From the IMG/VR virus record IMGVR_UViG_3300032156_002407, positions 1-35,069 of that record: a DNA stretch of 35,069 nucleotides; one strand, written 5' to 3'. A program made the position numbers and the translations under genes. Positions 809 to 32,017 of this stretch are shown here, in pieces. The stretch's first letter is position 1. Every line of letters starts with the position of its first letter. Below the pieces are notes generated by a model. The model searched no databases and was not told where the DNA came from. It saw only the letters and a list, made by a program, of their open reading frames with translations. Source of the DNA: a virus.

Positions 809-1765
809 ATGGCAATATTAAATCTTAAATTTGATACGTTCCTAGAATTGCTGAATAGATGGCACCTGCAGCCATTCTACATAGAGAGCCCTACGGAGTT
901 CAGGGCCTTTGTTTTTATGGAGGCGCAGGTATTCGAAACAGAAATTTCTATCAACGAAATAAAAACCAGGTTCGGAGATTCTATATACGTTTTGGATTTG
1001 TTCAAAACAACTTACTTTAGGAACGCCATTAAGATAGAATCAATAGAGGGAGAAGTTGCTAGCATTTATAAGGACATAAAGATAGACGCAACAGAATTAA
1101 AAATTATTCTAGACAACTTTCTAAAAGGCCTTAACAAGATAACGCTGACAAACATGGGGGATCAGGGGACGGCCGGCTATGCTTTGATACCGGTTACGCC
1201 AGGATCAGGCAAGATAAGACGCTGCGAGAGTTGTGGACAGATTTTATTAAGCGGAGAGGCTGCGTGTCCTGCATGCGGTTCTGAAAAAATAACAGACAAA
1301 AATACAGAAATAGAAATGAAGAAATGGGTTGGATGGGATTTCGAGGGCACTGTAAAATGGATTCTTATGTTTCTAGAAAAGTATGCTCTATCGCAGATCA
1401 CTGACATAACACACGAGCAGAAGATTTCAATAAAGGACGCATTAATAAAAAGCATAACTGAGGGATGGACTTTAAACAAACTGGAAAATACTATCTTAAC
1501 GGTAGTAAATGATGAGGACAGGGCCCGTATGATTGCAAGGACGGAAGTGATCAGGGCCGCGAACGAGGGAGCATTGCTGCATTATAAGGATCAGGAAATA
1601 GAAAAGGTGAAATGGATAGCAACGCCGTCAGCTCCAGGCGGAAGAACATGCGATAGATGCCTGGCATTGAACGGGAAAGAGTTTCTTTTGAAGGATGCTA
1701 AAGGTAAAATTCCCTTACATGTGTTTTGCAGATGTACTTGGACGCCTTTAATTTCACAAGCATAG
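809..1765 (+). CDS. MuF-like minor head protein with zinc ribbon
   Basis: The C-terminal third has the Phage Mu F-like pattern: RTEVIRAANEGALLHY, then TCDRCLALNGKEF, then PLHVFCRCTW. This family lies next to the portal in capsids of many tailed viruses. Residues 120-129 read GTAGYALIPV, identical to a peptide in the major capsid protein. They are followed directly by a zinc ribbon (C139, C142, C153, C156). The N-terminal 115 residues are unfamiliar. ATG 809 is preferred over the adjacent TTG 806 because GAGAGG lies 8 bases upstream. The order MuF, protease, capsid protein is canonical. The N-terminal part may be removed by the neighbouring protease, which is inference. Confidence 0.88.
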   Translation: MAILNLKFDTFLELLNRWHLQPFYIESPTEFRAFVFMEAQVFETEISINEIKTRFGDSIYVLDLFKTTYFRNAIKIESIEGEVASIYKDIKIDATELKIILDNFLKGLNKITLTNMGDQGTAGYALIPVTPGSGKIRRCESCGQILLSGEAACPACGSEKITDKNTEIEMKKWVGWDFEGTVKWILMFLEKYALSQITDITHEQKISIKDALIKSITEGWTLNKLENTILTVVNDEDRARMIARTEVIRAANEGALLHYKDQEIEKVKWIATPSAPGGRTCDRCLALNGKEFLLKDAKGKIPLHVFCRCTWTPLISQA

Positions 1766-1766
1766 A

Positions 1767-1776
1767 TTTATAAATT
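1767..1776 (+). promoter_or_regulatory. TATA-box promoter upstream of the protease-capsid genes
   Basis: TTTATAAATT starts two bases after the stop of the minor head gene and matches the archaeal TATA consensus. Transcription would begin near 1797-1802, giving a leader of about 90 bases before the GTG at 1889. The 123-base gap (1766-1888) holds no supportable gene. It is long for this compact genome, in line with a separate promoter boosting capsid expression. Confidence 0.5.
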
Positions 1777-1888
1777 GAGATTACCATAGAAATTAATAGA
1801 ACGATGATGTATTGGCGTCTGAGACAAGAAAAAGTGTGTGTTTGAGTACAGTATAGTAATTAATTCTTAGGTCCAGGCGTGGTCAACG

Positions 1889-2956
1889 GTGATTTTTATA
1901 TTTGAAAAATTCGAACACACATTCGACATAAAATCTATAGACAAAGATCGCAGGATAATCAGAGGAACCGCCTCTTTAGAAGAGGAAGATAGAGACGGGG
2001 AAATAATTGCCATGCCTGCAATAGCTGATTCTTTAAAAGGATGGCTACAAAATCCAGTTATTAGATTCAAACACGAGCATCCTATAGGCAAGGGCCTAGA
2101 ATTTATTGACGGCCAGCCGGCATGCTTTGTAACAGAAAAAGAGTTTATCGTTACCGCTTATATTTCTGACAAGACGCAGGCTGCAAAAGAGGCCTGGGGA
2201 TTAATTGAGGACGGAATTATAAAATCTTTCAGCGTCGGCGGAAAGGTTTTAGAAAAGATGGCCGTCAAGGAGAACGGAAGAGAACTTAAGAAAATAACCA
2301 AGATGGAACTTTACGAGGTTTCTGTTGTTGACATTCCTTCCAATCGTAAATCATTTTTCTCAGTCATTGCCAAATCTATAAAAAAACAGGATGATGATTT
2401 TGAGTGCCCATACTGCGGAGAAGAGTTTGATTCGCAAGAAGATCTTAATGATCATAAAAAAGATTGCCCAAAAAAGAGTGCAAAACAAAATGTAAACAAG
2501 CAATCAAGGGACGATGTTGCACAGGAATTATTTAACAAACCTTATGATGAGCTGGACGATGATCAAAAGGAAAAGGTAAATGCAAAATTAAAGCCTAAAG
2601 AGGACGCAGCTGCGCAGGACATTTCTAAACCTGGAGCTGGAACGCATTCAGATAAGTGGGACAGATGCGTTGCAGATGTTAGAGCCAGAGGAGGAGTTGA
2701 CAGTCCGGAAGCTGTTTGTACTGCATCATTAGGCGAGGAAAGTTTTAGAGGATTAGATCGCGGTAAGTGGTCCGAGAAGGATTCTAAAAATGTAACTGAT
2801 CTAATCAACAAAATTAATGCTCCTAAGACAGAGGGCGAAAATCCTTTGTCTAGAGAAAAAAATATAGAGGAACAAAAATGTCAGAACCAATTCAAACAGA
2901 CAAATCTGGAAGTGTCACTGAAAACGAGTCTGTTGAGCAAGTTACAGAAAAGATGA
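1889..2956 (+). CDS. Prohead maturation protease (S78/HK97 gp4-like) with zinc-finger tail
   Basis: Residues 10-160 match the HK97-type prohead protease: RGTAS near 25-29, the His region FKHEHPIGKG (H62/H64), and the Ser region KSFSVGG (S115 the likely nucleophile). LYEVSVVDIPSNRKSF ends the domain. It would cleave capsid and scaffold peptides during head maturation. Unusually, a zinc finger follows (C173, C176, H189, C193). Then comes a KWDRCVADVRARGG...C segment (C260 to C277), a motif seen in other virion-associated proteins. GTG 1889 is the first plausible start and has only a weak ribosome site. The last 79 bases overlap the capsid gene in another frame, so the C-terminal 26 residues may be little constrained. 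Confidence 0.88.
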   Translation: MIFIFEKFEHTFDIKSIDKDRRIIRGTASLEEEDRDGEIIAMPAIADSLKGWLQNPVIRFKHEHPIGKGLEFIDGQPACFVTEKEFIVTAYISDKTQAAKEAWGLIEDGIIKSFSVGGKVLEKMAVKENGRELKKITKMELYEVSVVDIPSNRKSFFSVIAKSIKKQDDDFECPYCGEEFDSQEDLNDHKKDCPKKSAKQNVNKQSRDDVAQELFNKPYDELDDDQKEKVNAKLKPKEDAAAQDISKPGAGTHSDKWDRCVADVRARGGVDSPEAVCTASLGEESFRGLDRGKWSEKDSKNVTDLINKINAPKTEGENPLSREKNIEEQKCQNQFKQTNLEVSLKTSLLSKLQKR

Positions 2957-4110
2957 ACAAGGAAATTGATGCTAGAATAGCAAAAGGAATAGCCGAAGGC
3001 ATGGAGCAGCTTAAAAAATCTTTGCCAGTTTACAAAGCAACAAAAGAGAACACAGATACAACTTTGAATAAACCTACTGGCGTAGGTGCAGAGATTCAAA
3101 AGTTCGCGACATTCAATCAGCCATTCGAACTTGAAGAAGCATTGAAAACAATAAAGCCTGAATCTAGTCCATTAGGTACAGAATATTACGGCGGAGTTAT
3201 GAGTACATTGGACAAGCGTGCTAACGGTCTGACATTCAAAGAGGCGTATGACGAGTATATCCAAAAGTACACAGATACCACAACCGGTGGAGCTGGTACA
3301 GCTGGATACGCATTGATTCCAGTCTATGTAGATCCTGACATAATAGATAGAACGAGAAGAGAGATTCCGTTTATAGAAATGTTGCCGAGAAGGGCAATAC
3401 AGGGCCTAACATATGATTACAACGCGATAACAACGTTGACGAACGCTGTTACACTCAACCAGGACGCTTCGTTGGATGATCTAACTGACGTGTACGATAG
3501 GTTCAGCACGATAATGACATACATTTACTCAACAGGAAGAGTTTCCGGTCCGACAATAGCAGCAAGAAGAGGATACGTTGACGCATTGAATTTGGAAGTA
3601 CAAAATAGAACCATCGGCTTGAAAAGGTACGAGGATCAGTTGTGCTTACAGGCAGCGGCAACAAGCCCAGAGATGAGTTCGTTGAACGACTTGATTTCAA
3701 CTAACCAAACAGCTTTGAGCGGTCCTTTAACTGTTAGCGCATTAAGAACAGAGTTGGCCCAATGTGGTGATGCTGGCGGAGTAATAAACCTCATCGTGAC
3801 TACAAATACATTATCAAATTCTCTAAAAGGTTTGATGATGGACTACCAAAGATGGGTAGACACAACTAAGATCGCGTGGGGAATTGAGACTATGAGTTTT
3901 GACGGAGTTCCAGTTATCGTGGACAGGTACGTTCCAAGCGGATACGTGTACATGTTAGATATGTCCGTAATCTTTATGGCCGTGCTGCAGGACATGGTAT
4001 ACGAAGAACTAGCCAAAACAAACGACTCAGTTAAGTTTACTTTGAAAGCATACGAGGCATTAGTTTGCAGAGCAGAAGCATTTTGTTCCATATTGACAGG
4101 ATGTACTTAG
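2878..4110 (+). CDS. HK97-fold major capsid protein
   Basis: The protein has 410 residues. The first 139 are charged and helical, as expected for a scaffolding delta domain (EQVTEKMNKEIDARIAKG). GTAGYALIPV at 140-149 then resembles the start of the mature shell domain in HK97-type proteins. About 260 residues follow (DPDIIDRTRREIPFIEM, FDGVPVIVDRY, VKFTLKAYEALVCR), typical of the HK97 fold and of its usual mature size. The start is supported by GAGG about 7 bases upstream, although it lies inside the protease gene. It stands directly after the protease and before small beta-rich genes, the normal place for this protein. Confidence 0.92.
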   Translation: MSEPIQTDKSGSVTENESVEQVTEKMNKEIDARIAKGIAEGMEQLKKSLPVYKATKENTDTTLNKPTGVGAEIQKFATFNQPFELEEALKTIKPESSPLGTEYYGGVMSTLDKRANGLTFKEAYDEYIQKYTDTTTGGAGTAGYALIPVYVDPDIIDRTRREIPFIEMLPRRAIQGLTYDYNAITTLTNAVTLNQDASLDDLTDVYDRFSTIMTYIYSTGRVSGPTIAARRGYVDALNLEVQNRTIGLKRYEDQLCLQAAATSPEMSSLNDLISTNQTALSGPLTVSALRTELAQCGDAGGVINLIVTTNTLSNSLKGLMMDYQRWVDTTKIAWGIETMSFDGVPVIVDRYVPSGYVYMLDMSVIFMAVLQDMVYEELAKTNDSVKFTLKAYEALVCRAEAFCSILTGCT

Positions 4111-14454: not shown

Positions 14455-17334
14455 ATGGTAGACCAAAAAATAATAGGAGTACTGATATTAACTATTTTAG
14501 TGGGAGCTGTTGTTATTTCTATGCAGGGAGTAAGGATACGCGTAGACAATGACAAGAGCACATTTTACGTCAAGCAGAACAATATCTGGACTGTTTCAGG
14601 AAGAGAGTACGTAAAATTGTTTGACGGATCAACGCAGCTAAACAGAAATGTTACCGGCATTGTCATTGATAATGTCATTGATGATGTCAACAAAAAAGTT
14701 AACATAACGAAAACCACGCCTTACATCACAGGCCCTTTGATCAAGGAGACTTATAATTTTGATGGAACGATAGACGATGTTTCAATATTTCCAATAAATC
14801 ACAAGATAGAAGTAATCAACGCATCAGGAAAGTTATTTAGATACGAAGTAAAGTACCTGGTTTATTCAGGGCCAACTTACAAACTTAACGGAGAGACAGA
14901 ATTATCTTTCGGCAAGAATATGAAATTGCAGTTGCAGCCAGGCTACAGATGGGCATGGGTATACTCTAACGGCGTAGTAAAGGCACAGTATGATGTGAAC
15001 TCGGACTATGAAGTTTTTAACGTAAGGTTCTATGATCCTGTAATTACTCTTTATCTTAACGGTAGCTCAGTAGACAGATTCTATGAGTACGGTGAGCCGG
15101 TTAACATAACTGCTACTGCAGACACCGGGAGCGTATGCGTTTCTATAGACGCTTACGGTTACGGATGGAACTACAGTTGCGCAGTCGGCAACGTGAAGAT
15201 TTATCTTAATGCTTTTGCTAACCAGTTCAAACTTAACAATACAGAAGCGACAGCATTAAACTTAACGGCTAACAGCACGATAAACATAAGTTTCCACAAC
15301 AAATCTATTACGCTGGCAGACGCGTACATTAATCTTACTGGTTATCTTAGTACGAACTACCCGGAGGATCTAAAGATAGACATAGGAAACAATGGAGTAG
15401 TAGACATAAACATTCCTGGACAGATAATTAACAAAACTCTTTACAACACAAAATTAAACAATAGTGCAACTTCTAACAAAATAAACTTCGATGCATCAGA
15501 AGCCAGCACTGTTTACGTTAGACACTGGAAAGACTGGAACTCTACTTCTGTTCTGTTTGACGTAGAAGGAACGTCAGGAACTAACATAACTTATTTTTAT
15601 GATGATAAAACACTCTACACGTCAAGCATTTACAATTACTTATGCTACGCGCCGGCAGGAGGGTATAGAGGGTCCTACGTTTATTCAATGGGAGGGAAAT
15701 GCCTAAATCAAACATTCTATGATTACAATACAACTATGGCTTACGATACAACTACCGGAAAGTGGTCCATTCTGACAACTAAGGATGTGCCTTACGAAGC
15801 TGGTAACAATCCATGCGCCGCTACAAACGAAACAACAAACACAATATATTTATCAGGCGGAGGAGGTACAAGCCCTCCAGGAACAGCATCACAAAGTTTC
15901 TATCTGTACAACGGTACATGGTACGTGTTGGGTAATATGCCGGCAGCAAGGTACATACATTCCTGTTTCCTGGCTGATAATAAATTCTTCGCAATAGGAG
16001 GTTACAACTCGACAGGGACCGCAACATCAACAGTTTACATTTACAATTTTTCAGATAGCACGTGGTACACTAGCGGAACAGCAACGCCGACATCTTTCGC
16101 TTCTGCTGGTATGGCTGTAATTAATTCTACGCATGCATTGAAAGTAGCTGGTTACACAACCACATGGGCACCTCAAACTTATTACTACAATTATGTTACT
16201 GACACGTGGGTTAACCCAGCAGAAAACTTTTACAGGTACGGCCACACTGTAGTTAGTATAGACGGCATAATTTATTCTATTGGAGGATATGATAATACAG
16301 GAACATATCAGAGCAATGTCCATTATTGGAACGATACAGACACAGAGTGGTACCAACATGTAAATTATATGAAGTACACAAAGTGGGGAGTAACAAACAA
16401 TCTAACAACCTACATGTCGCCTAACGAGGGAATAAATCTAAACGGAACTGTCTTTATGTTCTTTACAAACAGTTACGGCTACGGCGATGAAATGACAATA
16501 GCATATTTCAAGCCAACGAATTCAATTCTGCAAGTGGGTTATCCGCCTACGCCTTCTTGGAGTTTTTCAGGTTACTTGGATCAAAAGATAACGACAGGAA
16601 ACCTGGCAACTGACTTTAATAATTATCTGGCTACAGAATGCGATACCGATACGTGCGATGTTCCTATTACTGTTTCTTCCGCGTCTGCAGGAGCTCTCAA
16701 CGTTTCTAACATAAGAATAAACTCAACAATAGACAGGCTGCAGCTGCCGGTCAGCACAATTCAAAGTTTCATAAGCAGCAACAACCAGGTAGCGTTCAGA
16801 TTCAACGCTACTAACTGGGGAACTCTGCAAGTCAACGGCGCTAACTTTCCTTACAACGGATCGCAGAACATAACAGTAAAGGCACACACACCAGATTACA
16901 CAACAAACGATACGCAATATTTGTATACAGTATTCTCTAATTTTAGTTTAGCTTTTCCAAAATCATTTATAATAGAACCGATATTTTTACCAGACACCAA
17001 CAATAGTAGGAACGTAAGCATGTGGGGACAGACTGCTACGATACCAGGCTACAATATAACCGGCAAAGGATACGATAGAGATTTCAATTTGAGCATACGC
17101 ATCAATCAGTCTATGGATAACTGTATGAATGCAAGCGTCGGTACATCTAACACGGTTTACAACATAACAAAGTTAAACACTACCAGGCAACAGATTCTTT
17201 CAGGAATTTCTTTAAACGAATCTTTAGGTTTATGGATCAAACTTAACCTGTATAATTGTAACAGCTCGACAATCTATAGAAATTGGTGGATAGAACTAAA
17301 ATCCTGCTGCGACCAATGTATGAGATGTTATTAA
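14455..17334 (+). CDS. Large membrane-anchored kelch-repeat surface protein
   Basis: It has 959 residues. An N-terminal hydrophobic anchor (residues 5-23, KIIGVLILTILVGAVVISM) precedes a beta domain of a type common in archaeal surface proteins (STFYVKQNNIW...FPINHKIEVINASGK). Residues about 390-690 hold kelch-like blades: YDTTTGKWSIL, LYNGTWYVLGNMPAARY, FFAIGGYNSTG, IYSIGGYDNTGTYQSNV, HYWNDTDTEWY. These suggest a sugar- or protein-binding propeller. NxS/T sequons are frequent throughout. It lies between distal tail and hub genes, where receptor-binding genes often sit. The anchor helix, however, suggests export to the cell membrane. The end (CCDQCMRCY) is Cys-rich and close to a homing endonuclease insertion. 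Confidence 0.75.
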   Translation: MVDQKIIGVLILTILVGAVVISMQGVRIRVDNDKSTFYVKQNNIWTVSGREYVKLFDGSTQLNRNVTGIVIDNVIDDVNKKVNITKTTPYITGPLIKETYNFDGTIDDVSIFPINHKIEVINASGKLFRYEVKYLVYSGPTYKLNGETELSFGKNMKLQLQPGYRWAWVYSNGVVKAQYDVNSDYEVFNVRFYDPVITLYLNGSSVDRFYEYGEPVNITATADTGSVCVSIDAYGYGWNYSCAVGNVKIYLNAFANQFKLNNTEATALNLTANSTINISFHNKSITLADAYINLTGYLSTNYPEDLKIDIGNNGVVDINIPGQIINKTLYNTKLNNSATSNKINFDASEASTVYVRHWKDWNSTSVLFDVEGTSGTNITYFYDDKTLYTSSIYNYLCYAPAGGYRGSYVYSMGGKCLNQTFYDYNTTMAYDTTTGKWSILTTKDVPYEAGNNPCAATNETTNTIYLSGGGGTSPPGTASQSFYLYNGTWYVLGNMPAARYIHSCFLADNKFFAIGGYNSTGTATSTVYIYNFSDSTWYTSGTATPTSFASAGMAVINSTHALKVAGYTTTWAPQTYYYNYVTDTWVNPAENFYRYGHTVVSIDGIIYSIGGYDNTGTYQSNVHYWNDTDTEWYQHVNYMKYTKWGVTNNLTTYMSPNEGINLNGTVFMFFTNSYGYGDEMTIAYFKPTNSILQVGYPPTPSWSFSGYLDQKITTGNLATDFNNYLATECDTDTCDVPITVSSASAGALNVSNIRINSTIDRLQLPVSTIQSFISSNNQVAFRFNATNWGTLQVNGANFPYNGSQNITVKAHTPDYTTNDTQYLYTVFSNFSLAFPKSFIIEPIFLPDTNNSRNVSMWGQTATIPGYNITGKGYDRDFNLSIRINQSMDNCMNASVGTSNTVYNITKLNTTRQQILSGISLNESLGLWIKLNLYNCNSSTIYRNWWIELKSCCDQCMRCY

Positions 17335-17366
17335 TATTTATGAATCATAAGACACAACAATATATT

Positions 17367-17849
17367 ATGCCATTACCAAAAGGATTCAGACATACAGAAG
17401 AAACTAAAAGGAAAATAAGAAAGAGAATCATAAAATTGATGGATAAAAAGCATTTGAAAGAGATAGGATTCAAGAAAGGTTATATGCCTTGGAACAAAGG
17501 AACTAAAGGACTAAGCAAAGGTGGAGGATGTAAAGGTTTTAGGCACTCTAAAAAAACAAAATTGAAGTTGAGTAAGATGAGAATAGGAGAAAATAATCCA
17601 CATTACAAGAATGGTATAGGAAGTTATAGGCAGAGGGCTTGGAAAATGTTACCTCACAAGTGCAGGAAATGTGGTATTGAAAATGATAAAATTCTTATCA
17701 TACATCACAAAGACAGAGATAGAAAAAATAATAAAATGGAAAATCTTGAGATTTTATGCCTTAATTGCCACTTTTTAGCTCACGGATTCAATACAACACT
17801 TAATCTTGGTAAGTATGCGATTAAGGGATTGAAGAGGAGGTGCTGGTAA
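17367..17849 (+). CDS. HNH homing endonuclease with NUMOD3 repeats
   Basis: Two NUMOD3-type DNA-binding motifs (KGFRHTEETKRKIRK, KGFRHSKKTKLKLSK) precede an HNH nuclease domain: C99/C102, HHKD at 113-116, N127 and C131/C134-H135. Such proteins cut and copy themselves into related genomes. I choose ATG 17367; ATG 17340 is also possible. A TATA-like AATATTTATG at 17333-17342 lies about 25-30 bases upstream of 17367 and would give a leaderless message. The gene fits snugly between two tail genes. Its end contains the ribosome site (GAGGAGG, 17834-17840) of the next gene. Confidence 0.88.
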   Translation: MPLPKGFRHTEETKRKIRKRIIKLMDKKHLKEIGFKKGYMPWNKGTKGLSKGGGCKGFRHSKKTKLKLSKMRIGENNPHYKNGIGSYRQRAWKMLPHKCRKCGIENDKILIIHHKDRDRKNNKMENLEILCLNCHFLAHGFNTTLNLGKYAIKGLKRRCW

Positions 17850-26792: not shown

Positions 26793-27428
26793 GTGGAAGA
26801 GATGAGTATTGAAGATATGATAATTGCCGGTTACAATCCTAGAAAAATAAAAAAATCAGAACTAGACAAATTAAAGAACAGCATAAAAGAATTTGGATTT
26901 GTTGAACCGGTAGTAGTTAATTCTAACAAAGAGAGAAAAAATATTTTGATAGGAGGACACCAAAGAATCCTAGCTGCAAAGATGCTAGGAATAAAAGGTG
27001 TGCCGGTAGTATTTGTTGACCTAGACGAGGACAAGGAAAAGGCCCTTAACATTGCACTCAATAAAATTATGGGCGAGTGGGATGAAACTAAATTAGCGGT
27101 TCTGCTACAAGAAATAGAAAAAGATAATAAACTTCTAGTTAAGATAACTGGATTCGAAGCTGCAGAAATAAACAACTTAAGAATGTTTTTAAATAAGGAA
27201 TTTCAAAGGCCAGCATTCGAAGAAGTTATTGATCAGTTTAAAGTTGATCGCGGTAAGACAGAAAAAAATGAGAACTGGTTCTATATAGAATTTTATGGAG
27301 ACGAGAAGAAGTACAAAAAATTAGTAGCGCTTTTAAAACCACATATGAGAGGCAGATCACCGCACGAGATAGATGGTAACTTTTTTTATAAATTAGTAAC
27401 AAAAGGTAGTAAGAATGGCTCTAACTGA
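26793..27428 (+). CDS. ParB/Srx-fold protein
   Basis: The GTG start follows GAGGTGAT by 3 bases. Residues 10-120 are a clear ParB N-terminal (ParB/sulfiredoxin-fold) domain: NPRK at 15-18, LDKLKNSIKEFGFVEPVVV, then the conserved GGHQR at 54-58, and a helix-rich part (KALNIALNKIMGEWDETKL). The C-terminal 90 residues (NWFYIEFYGDEKKYKKLVAL) are beta-alpha and unfamiliar. In viruses such domains occur in partition proteins, nucleases, CTPases and partners of DNA-modifying enzymes. There is no parA or HTH domain here. The overlap with the radical SAM gene (14 bases) suggests a functional pair. Confidence 0.82.
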   Translation: MEEMSIEDMIIAGYNPRKIKKSELDKLKNSIKEFGFVEPVVVNSNKERKNILIGGHQRILAAKMLGIKGVPVVFVDLDEDKEKALNIALNKIMGEWDETKLAVLLQEIEKDNKLLVKITGFEAAEINNLRMFLNKEFQRPAFEEVIDQFKVDRGKTEKNENWFYIEFYGDEKKYKKLVALLKPHMRGRSPHEIDGNFFYKLVTKGSKNGSN

Positions 27429-28920
27429 AAAAGAAATAAGATGCAGACAGAAAGATGTATGCTCAGAATGCTTTAAACATAAGGCTACGTGCGGTAAGCA
27501 AGGAGCCTGTAACATTGTTAAGAAACAACTTAGAGACTATGCTGGCATAAGATTTACCAGTGACGGCTTTGACTGCGCGCTGCCGGTAACTTTAGATTCT
27601 CATTCAGTCTGTAGTTTCAGTTGCCTTTATTGTTTTGCGCCTAATCTGATAATGAGAAGAGAAGAACACGCGATGCCAGTGGGCCAGACTAGCTTAAAGA
27701 CTGTTGAAGATTTGTTTGCCGGCAAAAATAAGCACTGGGATATTTACAGACGCGCATTGAAATATCACGATAGAAAGAACGGCTACCCATGTCCAATACA
27801 GATAGGAGGACTGACTGATCCTTTAGACAATATAGAACGTAACCAGGGATGGTTTTTAAAATTTGTTGAGATAGCAAAAAAATATAATCAGCCTGTAAGG
27901 ATTAGCACGAAAGGAAATCTATTTCTAGAGCAAGAATATTTAGACGCGCTAGCAGATAGACCTGAACTATTTTGGGTAAACTTTTCAATAATTTCATCGG
28001 ACGACAAAGTTATACAAGAAGTAGATAGAAGAGCACCGCCGACCAGCGAAAGAATACAGTGCATAAAAAATCTAACAGAGATAGGAGTTAAGGCCGGCTT
28101 AAGATTTAGGCCAATAATACCAGGTATAAGTGACAGTACAGACAGTTATCCTACAGCCTATAGAACATTAATTGAAATGGCTGCAGAAGCAGGCGCTAGA
28201 AATATTAGTTATGAAGTTGCATTTATGCCGGGTAGAATGACAGCAGACCTGGTAGATCGCTGGACAGAGATAGAAAAAATAGCTAAGCTGCCTTTAATAT
28301 CTATTTACAAATCTTTCGGAAAGAACCAGGCATGCATAAGGCCCTCACATCAGTGGACAGAAGAAATAATGCACGCTATCTACAATGTAGCCAAAGAAAA
28401 CAAAATGAATATAGGAATATCAGATCCTAATTGGAAGCAATTAACAGAATGTGGTTGCTGTTGCGGCATATCTGAGAGTGATCCTATTTTTGGAAACTGG
28501 CAACGCGAGAGCTGTACGAATCAACTTATGATAGCAAAAAATACCGGTTGTACGTTATGTTCTAAAAATATAATTCCTAAATGGGCTTACGATGCAGACG
28601 CTGGCCTGCTAGTAAATCCTGGCGTAGGGCCTACGGTTAGATTCAAAAGAAAACATCTAAAGTGGAGCGATAAACTAAAGGACGTATGGAACAACGTAGA
28701 CAAAGAAAGAAGTCCGCTAATATATTTCCAGGGAGCTCTTATGCCGGTAAGCAAAAAGAACGGAGAAATAATTTATAAGTATGTTGGGCTGAAACGCCGC
28801 AACAAAACAGATACGCCTTACTGGAAAATAAAAGGAGAGGATAGTAGTGATAGAAGAGTTGAAAATAAAAACCTTAGAGATCGCAATAAGAACAATGGGA
28901 AAGGAAGTAACAGACCTTAA
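27415..28920 (+). CDS. Radical SAM enzyme
   Basis: CSFSCLYC (C66, C70, C73) is the CxxxCxxC site that binds the catalytic 4Fe-4S cluster with S-adenosylmethionine. The TIM-barrel pattern follows (PIQIGGLTDPLDN, VRISTKGNLF, FWVNFSIISSD, GLRFRPIIPGISD). It resembles SPL-like (spore photoproduct lyase-type) radical SAM proteins. Extra Cys groups occur at 10-32 and at 346-382 (CGCCC...C...CTLC), possible sites of further clusters. At 501 residues it is longer than a minimal radical SAM protein. The substrate is unknown; coupling to a ParB-like protein makes DNA or a nucleotide attractive. The last 24 codons overlap a coiled-coil gene. Confidence 0.85.
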   Translation: MALTEKEIRCRQKDVCSECFKHKATCGKQGACNIVKKQLRDYAGIRFTSDGFDCALPVTLDSHSVCSFSCLYCFAPNLIMRREEHAMPVGQTSLKTVEDLFAGKNKHWDIYRRALKYHDRKNGYPCPIQIGGLTDPLDNIERNQGWFLKFVEIAKKYNQPVRISTKGNLFLEQEYLDALADRPELFWVNFSIISSDDKVIQEVDRRAPPTSERIQCIKNLTEIGVKAGLRFRPIIPGISDSTDSYPTAYRTLIEMAAEAGARNISYEVAFMPGRMTADLVDRWTEIEKIAKLPLISIYKSFGKNQACIRPSHQWTEEIMHAIYNVAKENKMNIGISDPNWKQLTECGCCCGISESDPIFGNWQRESCTNQLMIAKNTGCTLCSKNIIPKWAYDADAGLLVNPGVGPTVRFKRKHLKWSDKLKDVWNNVDKERSPLIYFQGALMPVSKKNGEIIYKYVGLKRRNKTDTPYWKIKGEDSSDRRVENKNLRDRNKNNGKGSNRP

Positions 28921-30237: not shown

Positions 30238-30825
30238 ATGGCTGAACCAACAACTACACCAACGGAGGTACCGGCAACTGTACCGGTAGAAGTTAAGACA
30301 AAGAAAACCTATACGCAGGCAAAGACAAAGGAGCGCAGAAACAGACTTAAGAAATTAATAATGCGCGGTTATCATTCTCAAGAAACTCTAGCTAAGGCCC
30401 TGGAATGTTCTAGAAGTACAATAGAAAGGGATTTAATAATTATACACGAAGAGATTGATGCGGAACTGGCCAAAGAAAAGGTAGACGATATATTAAAAGA
30501 TTTTATGCTACAGACGCGCGGATCTTATGAGGACATACAAAATATGTATTCTGCTAGCAATGATGATTTTATAAAACTCAGGGCTCAGAAGCAGCTGCAG
30601 GAACTAAGAGAAGCTAAGATTAAAATATTGCAGTCTCTAGGAATGATAAAAGAAGTTGCACCGGCACAACGCGAACCGCTAGTATTTGAATTTATTAAGC
30701 CTGAATGGAAAGAAGAAAAAGAGCCGGCAGCAGAAAAAGAAGAAGAGGTTAAAAATGAAAATAAATCTAGCGTACCAGCCCTGGGGACCTCAGATACGGT
30801 TTCACAACAGCCCGGTCAAGTTTAG
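30238..30825 (+). CDS. Terminase small subunit-like HTH protein
   Basis: ATG 30238 follows GTGAT; an in-frame TTG upstream is less likely. After a Thr/Pro/Val-rich start comes a helix-turn-helix (YHSQETLAKALECSRSTIERDLIIIHEEI, about residues 52-80), then an oligomerising helical part (KLRAQKQLQELREAKIKILQ). The acidic tail is partly encoded over the start of the large subunit gene (71-base overlap). The position and build fit the small subunit that recognises viral DNA for packaging. Confidence 0.75.
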   Translation: MAEPTTTPTEVPATVPVEVKTKKTYTQAKTKERRNRLKKLIMRGYHSQETLAKALECSRSTIERDLIIIHEEIDAELAKEKVDDILKDFMLQTRGSYEDIQNMYSASNDDFIKLRAQKQLQELREAKIKILQSLGMIKEVAPAQREPLVFEFIKPEWKEEKEPAAEKEEEVKNENKSSVPALGTSDTVSQQPGQV

Positions 30826-32017
30826 AGGATTCATTGGAGGACTAGGATCTGGTAAAACTTTATGTGGCGCAATCGAAAGTCTAATTGTTGCTTTAGATCA
30901 TCCTGGCAGCCTGGGAGTTATACTAGCGCCAACATACCCAATGTTGCGTGACAGTACGATAAAAACATTTCTAGAAATATGTCCTTATGATTCAATTGAA
31001 TTCTATAATAGATCTGAACAAAGATTAAGATTAAAGAATGGAACAGAAATTTTATTCAGACCTGGTAACGATATGGCTGCAATAGATAGATTAAGAAATA
31101 TAAATGTTGACTGGTTTTGGGTAGATGAAGGAAGTTTATTTCTAGAGTACGCGTGGAAAGTTTTGATTGGAAGATTAAGAGGACAGAAAGGGCCTAGAAG
31201 AGGATGGGTAACGACCACGCCAAAAGGTTACAACTGGACATGGAGAAAATTTGTAAGCCAGTCAACAGAAGACTATGAATATTTTACTGCGAGTTCGTTG
31301 GACAATCCTTACCTACCTGCAGATTATAAAAAATCTTTGAGGGCAGAATATACTGGCGTGTTTGCTAAGCAAGAAATATATGGCCTCTTTGTTGGCTTTG
31401 AGGGATCTGTTTATCCTGAGTTCAATAGAGTAACGCATGTTATAGACACAACTGAAATAAAGTTCGAGGCTATTATTGCCGGCGTTGACTTTGGTTTTAC
31501 TAATCCTAGTGTTATTTTAAAAATTGGAATAGACTACGATGGCCGTCTTTATGTCATTGATGAGTTTTACGAGAAGCATATAACAGACAGTGACCTGGCT
31601 GCATGGGCCAAAGAAAATATGAAAGACGTTGAGTTCTTTATTGCCGATTCAGAAAATCCCAGCGGCATACAGGAATTTAAAGATAGAGATATGGAATGCA
31701 AGGGAGTTAAGAAAACTGTTGCAGAACCTAAAGAAACTTTTGTTATCTCAGGCATAAAGAGAATAACAAATTTATTAATAATTAGAGGCGATAACAGACC
31801 TAGACTTTTTGTAGATAATAAATGTGTTAACACGATAATGGAGTTTGAAAACTACAGATACCCAGAAAAGGAAGAAGAGAGGCCAATGAAAGAAGCACCT
31901 TTGAAAATACACGACCACGCGATGGACGCCTTAAGATATATTGTAACAACATTAGGAGAAGAGTTCGATAGAATAATTTTCCTGGAGGGCGAAGAGAACG
32001 TCAAGAAAAAAAGCTAG
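30755..32017 (+). CDS. Terminase large subunit
   Basis: ATG 30755 follows GAGG closely; a longer frame upstream would only repeat small-subunit DNA. The ATPase has Walker A GGLGSGKT (28-35), Walker B WFWVDE (D124, E125) and the coupling motif TTTPKG (153-158). The nuclease has D245 in GVDFG, D298 in ADSENPSG and D391 in HDHAMDALRY, the three metal-binding acidic residues. The length of 420 residues is normal. It drives DNA into the prohead through the portal and cuts concatemers. Confidence 0.94.
   Translation: MKINLAYQPWGPQIRFHNSPVKFRGFIGGLGSGKTLCGAIESLIVALDHPGSLGVILAPTYPMLRDSTIKTFLEICPYDSIEFYNRSEQRLRLKNGTEILFRPGNDMAAIDRLRNINVDWFWVDEGSLFLEYAWKVLIGRLRGQKGPRRGWVTTTPKGYNWTWRKFVSQSTEDYEYFTASSLDNPYLPADYKKSLRAEYTGVFAKQEIYGLFVGFEGSVYPEFNRVTHVIDTTEIKFEAIIAGVDFGFTNPSVILKIGIDYDGRLYVIDEFYEKHITDSDLAAWAKENMKDVEFFIADSENPSGIQEFKDRDMECKGVKKTVAEPKETFVISGIKRITNLLIIRGDNRPRLFVDNKCVNTIMEFENYRYPEKEEERPMKEAPLKIHDHAMDALRYIVTTLGEEFDRIIFLEGEENVKKKS

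Follow-up and report, generated by a model that had tools for sequence, protein, structure and literature searches.

Results

The minor head (MuF-family) protein and the HK97-fold major capsid protein of a tailed virus carry a common block of about 20 residues, and we put at roughly two in three the probability that one S78 prohead protease cuts both proteins at this block as a shared maturation-cleavage module. The block is conserved in both proteins, lies at a fold border, and is accompanied by a protease whose catalytic residues can be aligned with those of a known S78 enzyme. The window, by which we mean the whole stretch of DNA analysed, is the linear contig of IMG/VR record IMGVR_UViG_3300032156_002407 (35,069 bases), with 50 predicted proteins (10,800 aa). 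The positions of the relevant features are listed in Table 1.

Table 1. Features of the window that bear on the shared block.
Feature	Position	Strand	Details
Minor head (MuF-family) protein gene	809..1765	+	318 aa; PF04233, PHROG
Predicted N-terminal pro-region of minor head protein, residues 1-110	809..1138	+	putatively removed
Block in minor head protein, residues 110-129	1136..1195	+	K110-ITLTNMGDQ-GTAGYALIPV; K110 = predicted P1
Decapeptide GTAGYALIPV, minor head copy	1166..1195	+	translation
Zinc ribbon C139-x2-C142 ... C153-x2-C156	1223..1276	+	weak Pfam zinc-ribbon matches
MuF domain of minor head protein	1430..1741	+	PF04233 match
Prohead serine protease, family S78	1889..2956	+	PF04586 E=1.4e-8
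S78 catalytic residues H62, S115, E143	2072-2074, 2231-2233, 2315-2317	+	alignment
Major capsid protein gene, SU10_MCP family, HK97 fold	2878..4110	+	410 aa; PF17236 E=1.6e-13
Predicted delta domain of capsid protein, residues 1-130	2878..3267	+	AlphaFold2; fast-evolving; removal expected
Block in capsid protein, residues 130-149	3265..3324	+	K130-YTDTTTGGA-GTAGYALIPV; K130 = predicted P1
Decapeptide GTAGYALIPV, capsid protein copy	3295..3324	+	translation
Large terminase	30686-32017		far end of record
Portal	from 33564		far end of record

The minor head and capsid proteins share a block under protein-level selection

A preliminary description of this DNA had reported the decapeptide GTAGYALIPV in both proteins, and both translations contain it. 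The decapeptide forms the right part of a block that reads K-[YFI]-T-x-T-x-x-G-[GD]-x-GTAGYA[LM]IPV and begins with a conserved Lys at position -10 relative to the decapeptide. Comparison of the minor-head and capsid profiles with hhalign gave E=1.9e-8 over 44 columns, and the likeness was limited to the block and a short stretch preceding it. Homology of the whole N-terminal regions was rejected because the block-free profiles were unrelated (hhalign probability 0.6%). In two related viruses (L003 and L004), local alignments of the minor head with the capsid protein reach across the delta domain. The block was found in no other protein of the window, the protease included, and an auto-cleavage site in the protease was rejected on this ground. 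Portal-MuF fusions contain KA-x-TTDSP stretches that resemble the left half of the block; inspection by eye led to rejection of the portal as a third substrate, since the window portal reads AKFTNLQVTARDMEYL there, an ordinary portal segment.

The two DNA copies of the decapeptide are identical at 21 of 30 nucleotides and, as had been claimed, differ in nine of their ten codons, every difference lying at the third base. When the decapeptide was independently back-translated twice with the codon usage of this genome, a mean of 6.5 codons differed and the probability of at least nine was 0.08. The observed difference thus fits independent codon choice and leaves no trace of a recent DNA copy. 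In a six-frame comparison the decapeptide scored 51, against 24 for the next-best 10-mer. The longest word common to the 50 window proteins had 10 residues and the second-longest match did not exceed 6; in 500 shuffled proteomes the longest common word had 5-7 residues, reaching 8 in three and 9 in none.

Conservation of the minor-head copy was evaluated in five sequences, which are all the block-bearing minor heads found. Their pairwise amino acid identity was 96% in the decapeptide and 84% in the block, compared with 70% in the downstream region and 56% in the upstream region, the predicted pro-region, which is the least conserved part of the protein. Among the amino-acid-identical codon pairs in the decapeptide, 60% were synonymous differences. 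Such high identity combined with free synonymous change indicated purifying selection on the peptide. The earlier proposal that selection at the protein level maintains both copies, with no recent DNA copying, was thereby supported. Moreover, all five minor heads kept the Lys at -10 and a Thr at both -8 and -6. The window copy is the weakest of the set, with MGDQ in place of the TGGQ of its relatives, and the other four minor heads have GTAGYAMIPV. The tenth identity in the window is therefore a conservative Leu/Met substitution and not a constant of the family.

The capsid copy marks the delta/shell border

It had also been put forward earlier that the decapeptide stands where the delta domain of an HK97-type capsid protein gives way to the shell, and this placement was supported by AlphaFold2, by Foldseek and by a border in conservation. 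The AlphaFold2 model of the capsid protein has a confidently predicted helix (19-48), a disordered stretch (52-150) and the HK97 shell fold from about residue 151. With this model Foldseek matched SU10 (E 1.7e-16) and HK97 1ohg (E 7.8e-14, TMt 0.71), and a PDB sequence search with the capsid profile returned weak capsid matches only. The -10 Lys was present in 40 of 41 non-redundant capsid proteins; in the same set the information content was 4.2 bits and dropped to <2 just upstream of this Lys, with mostly <1.5 bits at the upstream positions. The border also includes T at -6 and GG at -3/-2, followed by the strongly conserved start of the shell. Judged from these alignments, such a sharp border is as expected for a protease border.

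The protease gene was confirmed to lie between the minor head and capsid genes and belongs to family S78, and its H62, S115 and E143 are invariant in the alignment with HK97 gp4. A C2H2-type zinc finger follows its catalytic domain (window 2399-2467); it is also found in L004 and is absent from L003 and L005.

The minor head gene starts at ATG 809, with TTG 806 as another possible start. Its product matches Phage_Mu_F (PF04233) with E=5.6e-14 and 53.3 bits, against a curated cut-off of 29.6, and a PHROG minor head protein with E=3.4e-24; from its family and gene position, the protein probably sits inside the virion head. In its AlphaFold2 model the MuF domain is the only confident part and the block falls in a low-confidence link region after helix 94-112; Foldseek found no matches with this low-confidence model. 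The zinc ribbon begins where it had been described, its first Cys (C139) lying 9 residues past the decapeptide. Its cysteines are kept across the clade of viruses with block-bearing minor heads, and the ribbon is absent in the sister viruses L044 and L037. In L037 (799-2574) the minor head protein has its MuF domain split by an intein-like insert (HVNC|YDKETEVYTSKG...), and in L044 (783-1883) a small N-terminal domain of the minor head protein (FD-x-F...FYTE...RF) is present twice.

The minor-head copy is confined to one clade

Both copies are present in the window, L003, L004 and L005; in L085 the minor-head copy was seen, and the contig stops before the capsid gene. The reverse strand of L085 (1-1077) also carries an intein-like insert that splits the terminase (MFDH|CLVGDTLVETIKG). 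A search for the DNA pattern of GTAGYA-x-IPV gave 103 stretches in viral contigs, nearly all of them in capsid proteins, and in about 90 other viral contigs the capsid protein alone carries the block, where the delta domain meets the shell. No block was found among the approximately 60 MuF ORFs checked outside the clade, and less closely related contigs encode MuF either as a short protein or fused to the portal. In the capsid tree, the viruses with block-bearing minor heads group into a single, fully supported clade, with L037 and L044 as the nearest neighbors. From these sequences, a single clade-specific gain is the simplest reading of the minor-head block. In addition, the capsid proteins of the window clade read K-[YF]-T, compared with K-A in most others, and the minor heads of the clade read K-[FI]-T, so that the copy matches the site of its own clade.

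The preliminary description had named relatives with the peptide in only one protein, both proteins still being incorporated, as evidence against joint cleavage. Half of this was found: a block-bearing capsid protein is combined with a block-free MuF protein in L044 and L037 and in over 50 further contigs. These capsid-only relatives point to a clade-specific gain and argue against an obligatory MuF docking signal, and they do not refute cleavage in this clade. In L044 (2999-5005) and L037 (2935-4899), the protease and the capsid protein are encoded together in one ORF (about 655-669 aa), and the K-x-T...GTAGYALIPV block sits where the two parts meet, which implies that the shell protein must be freed near the block.

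Both proteins are predicted to be cut after a conserved Lys

The capsid protein would have an HK97-type layout, with an N-terminal delta (scaffold) domain, a putative scissile site after K130 and the N-arm start GG-x-GTAGYA[LM]IPV. The minor head protein of the clade would have gained this module between its N-terminal region and the zinc ribbon/MuF domain, with K110 as the corresponding Lys. We infer that the S78 protease would enter the prohead and there cut both proteins with Lys as P1, taking about 110 residues off the minor head protein and about 130 off the capsid protein. The retained N-arm segment GTAGYA[LM]IPV may line the inner shell surface in both proteins.

The cut had previously been placed at or near the decapeptide, with about 120-140 residues removed. 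In the present analysis the predicted site moves to the upstream Lys. A cut after K110 and K130, and not inside the decapeptide, is expected from HK97 and T5. HK97 gp5 is cleaved between K103 and S104 (PMC10275583), AG and P recur at comparable spacing in the sequence that follows this bond (SLGSDADSAGSLIQP), and K103 is similarly spaced before AGSLIQP. T5 pb8 has LK159-A at its border, which was reported at about 160 residues (PMC11313276). The T5 portal model begins at residue 11, just past a Lys, which fits a Lys cut that is itself putative.

The strongest conservation (GTAGYAxIPV) is found 10-19 residues past the predicted scissile bond, farther than proteases usually read. Its conservation would therefore need a different cause, for example the structure of the N-arm or docking. 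A structural role of GTAGYA[LM]IPV in the capsid N-arm is suggested by the sequences. In the minor head protein the segment may serve in docking, which would be compatible with the N-arm role.

Alternative explanations

The minor head protein might have copied the N-arm segment as docking mimicry, binding the inner shell and so entering the prohead with no need to be cut. The most conserved residues do fall after the predicted cut, in the N-arm start; the HK97 N-arm takes the place of the scaffold after cleavage (PMC10275583), and P1 DarA binds the inner surface of the hexon beside the capsid cleavage site (PMC12810830). However, none of the five minor heads has lost Lys -10 or Thr -6, which docking would not require, and the MuF proteins of the sister viruses and of more distant contigs lack the block. 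Furthermore, SPP1 gp7, a MuF protein, reaches the prohead via the portal (PMC6316719), and MuF is fused to the portal in many relatives. We therefore consider a pure docking signal unlikely, and less likely than cleavage. Only tentatively do we consider a combined reading, in which the minor head protein would partly mimic a capsid subunit, dock at the N-arm site, be recruited by the shell and be cut together with the delta domains by the same protease. If it were true, recruitment would proceed via the shell and not only the portal, the cut would free the zinc-ribbon/MuF part, and one common peptide would time both prohead recruitment and release.

The restriction of the block to one clade, beside a zinc ribbon that is likewise missing from the sister clade, could reflect past recombination in which the minor head gene received a copy of part of the capsid gene, now functionless and not yet decayed. 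This is very improbable given the nine differing codons and given that synonymous sites vary freely while the peptide keeps 96% identity, against 56-70% in its flanks. Chance or convergent likeness of short peptides does occur: the exact GTAGYALIPV is also found in low-molecular-weight-phosphatase-like proteins (RSAGTAGYALIPVTEDL) of six viral contigs (L032, L033, L035, L042, L100 and L107). Nevertheless, the left half of the block is missing from these matches (PSSM 19-22 vs at least 44), and they were rejected as a related site, being coincidence or convergence. For the head proteins, chance has a negligible probability, as even nine common residues were never reached in the shuffles and the pair recurs in three related genomes.

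Comparison with known head-maturation systems

The cutting of several head proteins by one protease is known from T4, SPN3US, 80alpha and P1 DarA, and a MuF protein with a capsid-type cleavage site appears to be new. Literature searches, which covered mostly open-access papers, found neither a capsid-type site in a MuF protein nor the peptide string GTAGYA in a phage context.

In HK97 (gp4/gp5), as in the window, the gene for an HK97-fold capsid protein with an N-terminal delta domain directly follows that for an S78 protease, a Lys stands at the border, and the spacing from this Lys to the N-arm is similar. By sequence and structure prediction, the window has the protease residues, the separate delta region and the border Lys of the HK97 (S78) type. 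The site described in HK97 is in the capsid protein, whereas the window adds a near-copy of the site and N-arm start in a MuF protein. Similar to the proposed processing, Pro of P1 is one prohead protease that trims the N-termini of the MCP and of the internal head protein DarA, and the two cleavage sites adjoin in the head (PMC12810830). DarA is not a MuF protein, unlike the predicted second substrate of the window.

In 80alpha, CP, SP and ribosomal L27 share a motif at which they are cleaved by Prp, a host protease, and some phages carry this motif on further structural proteins (PMC5744158). The motif lies at the extreme N-terminus and 13-14 residues are removed, whereas in the window a viral S78 protease would remove more than 100 residues at a different motif, about 110-130 residues from the N-terminus. 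The Prp-type features (host Prp, short N-terminal motif and F/A cut) were not found in the window. T4-type prohead protease sites have a short, Glu-based motif. The block of the window, with about 20 residues and a Lys, differs from such SPN3US/T4-type motifs. SPN3US gp245 takes N-terminal propeptides of 20-254 residues off eight head proteins at a common motif (PMC10052503). SPP1 gp7 resembles the window protein in having a MuF domain and a gene between the portal and capsid genes; it is brought in by the portal (PMC6316719), whereas the MuF protein of the window has a capsid-type block.

In virions, the minor head and capsid proteins are thus predicted to have new N-termini, after K110 and K130, respectively. 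The block can serve as a signature by which capsid maturation sites are recognized in a large group of viral contigs that has been little studied, and its pairing would illustrate the spread of a protease substrate site between unrelated head proteins of one virus. Some MuF proteins carry toxins in other phages. A capsid-type module in one MuF protein offers a directly testable case for the entry of MuF proteins into heads and their release.

Likely host and other features of the record

The host of this tailed virus is likely archaeal, as its significant named-phage capsid matches are to an archaeal virus and its best listed MuF match is to a Halorubrum phage. The only named-phage capsid matches with significance were two records of Haloarcula hispanica tailed virus 2, and the Halorubrum phage had the lowest E-value among the MuF matches listed. 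A scan of genome contigs for the GTAGYA pattern matched only two MAG contigs and gave no host.

Two further gene arrangements were observed in the record. An HNH/NUMOD3 homing-type endonuclease gene (window 17283-17849) overlaps the end of a Kelch-repeat protein gene (14455-17334) in the tail region. At window 26793-28920, a radical SAM gene is overlapped by a gene for a ParB N-terminal domain, and the two are possibly one functional pair.
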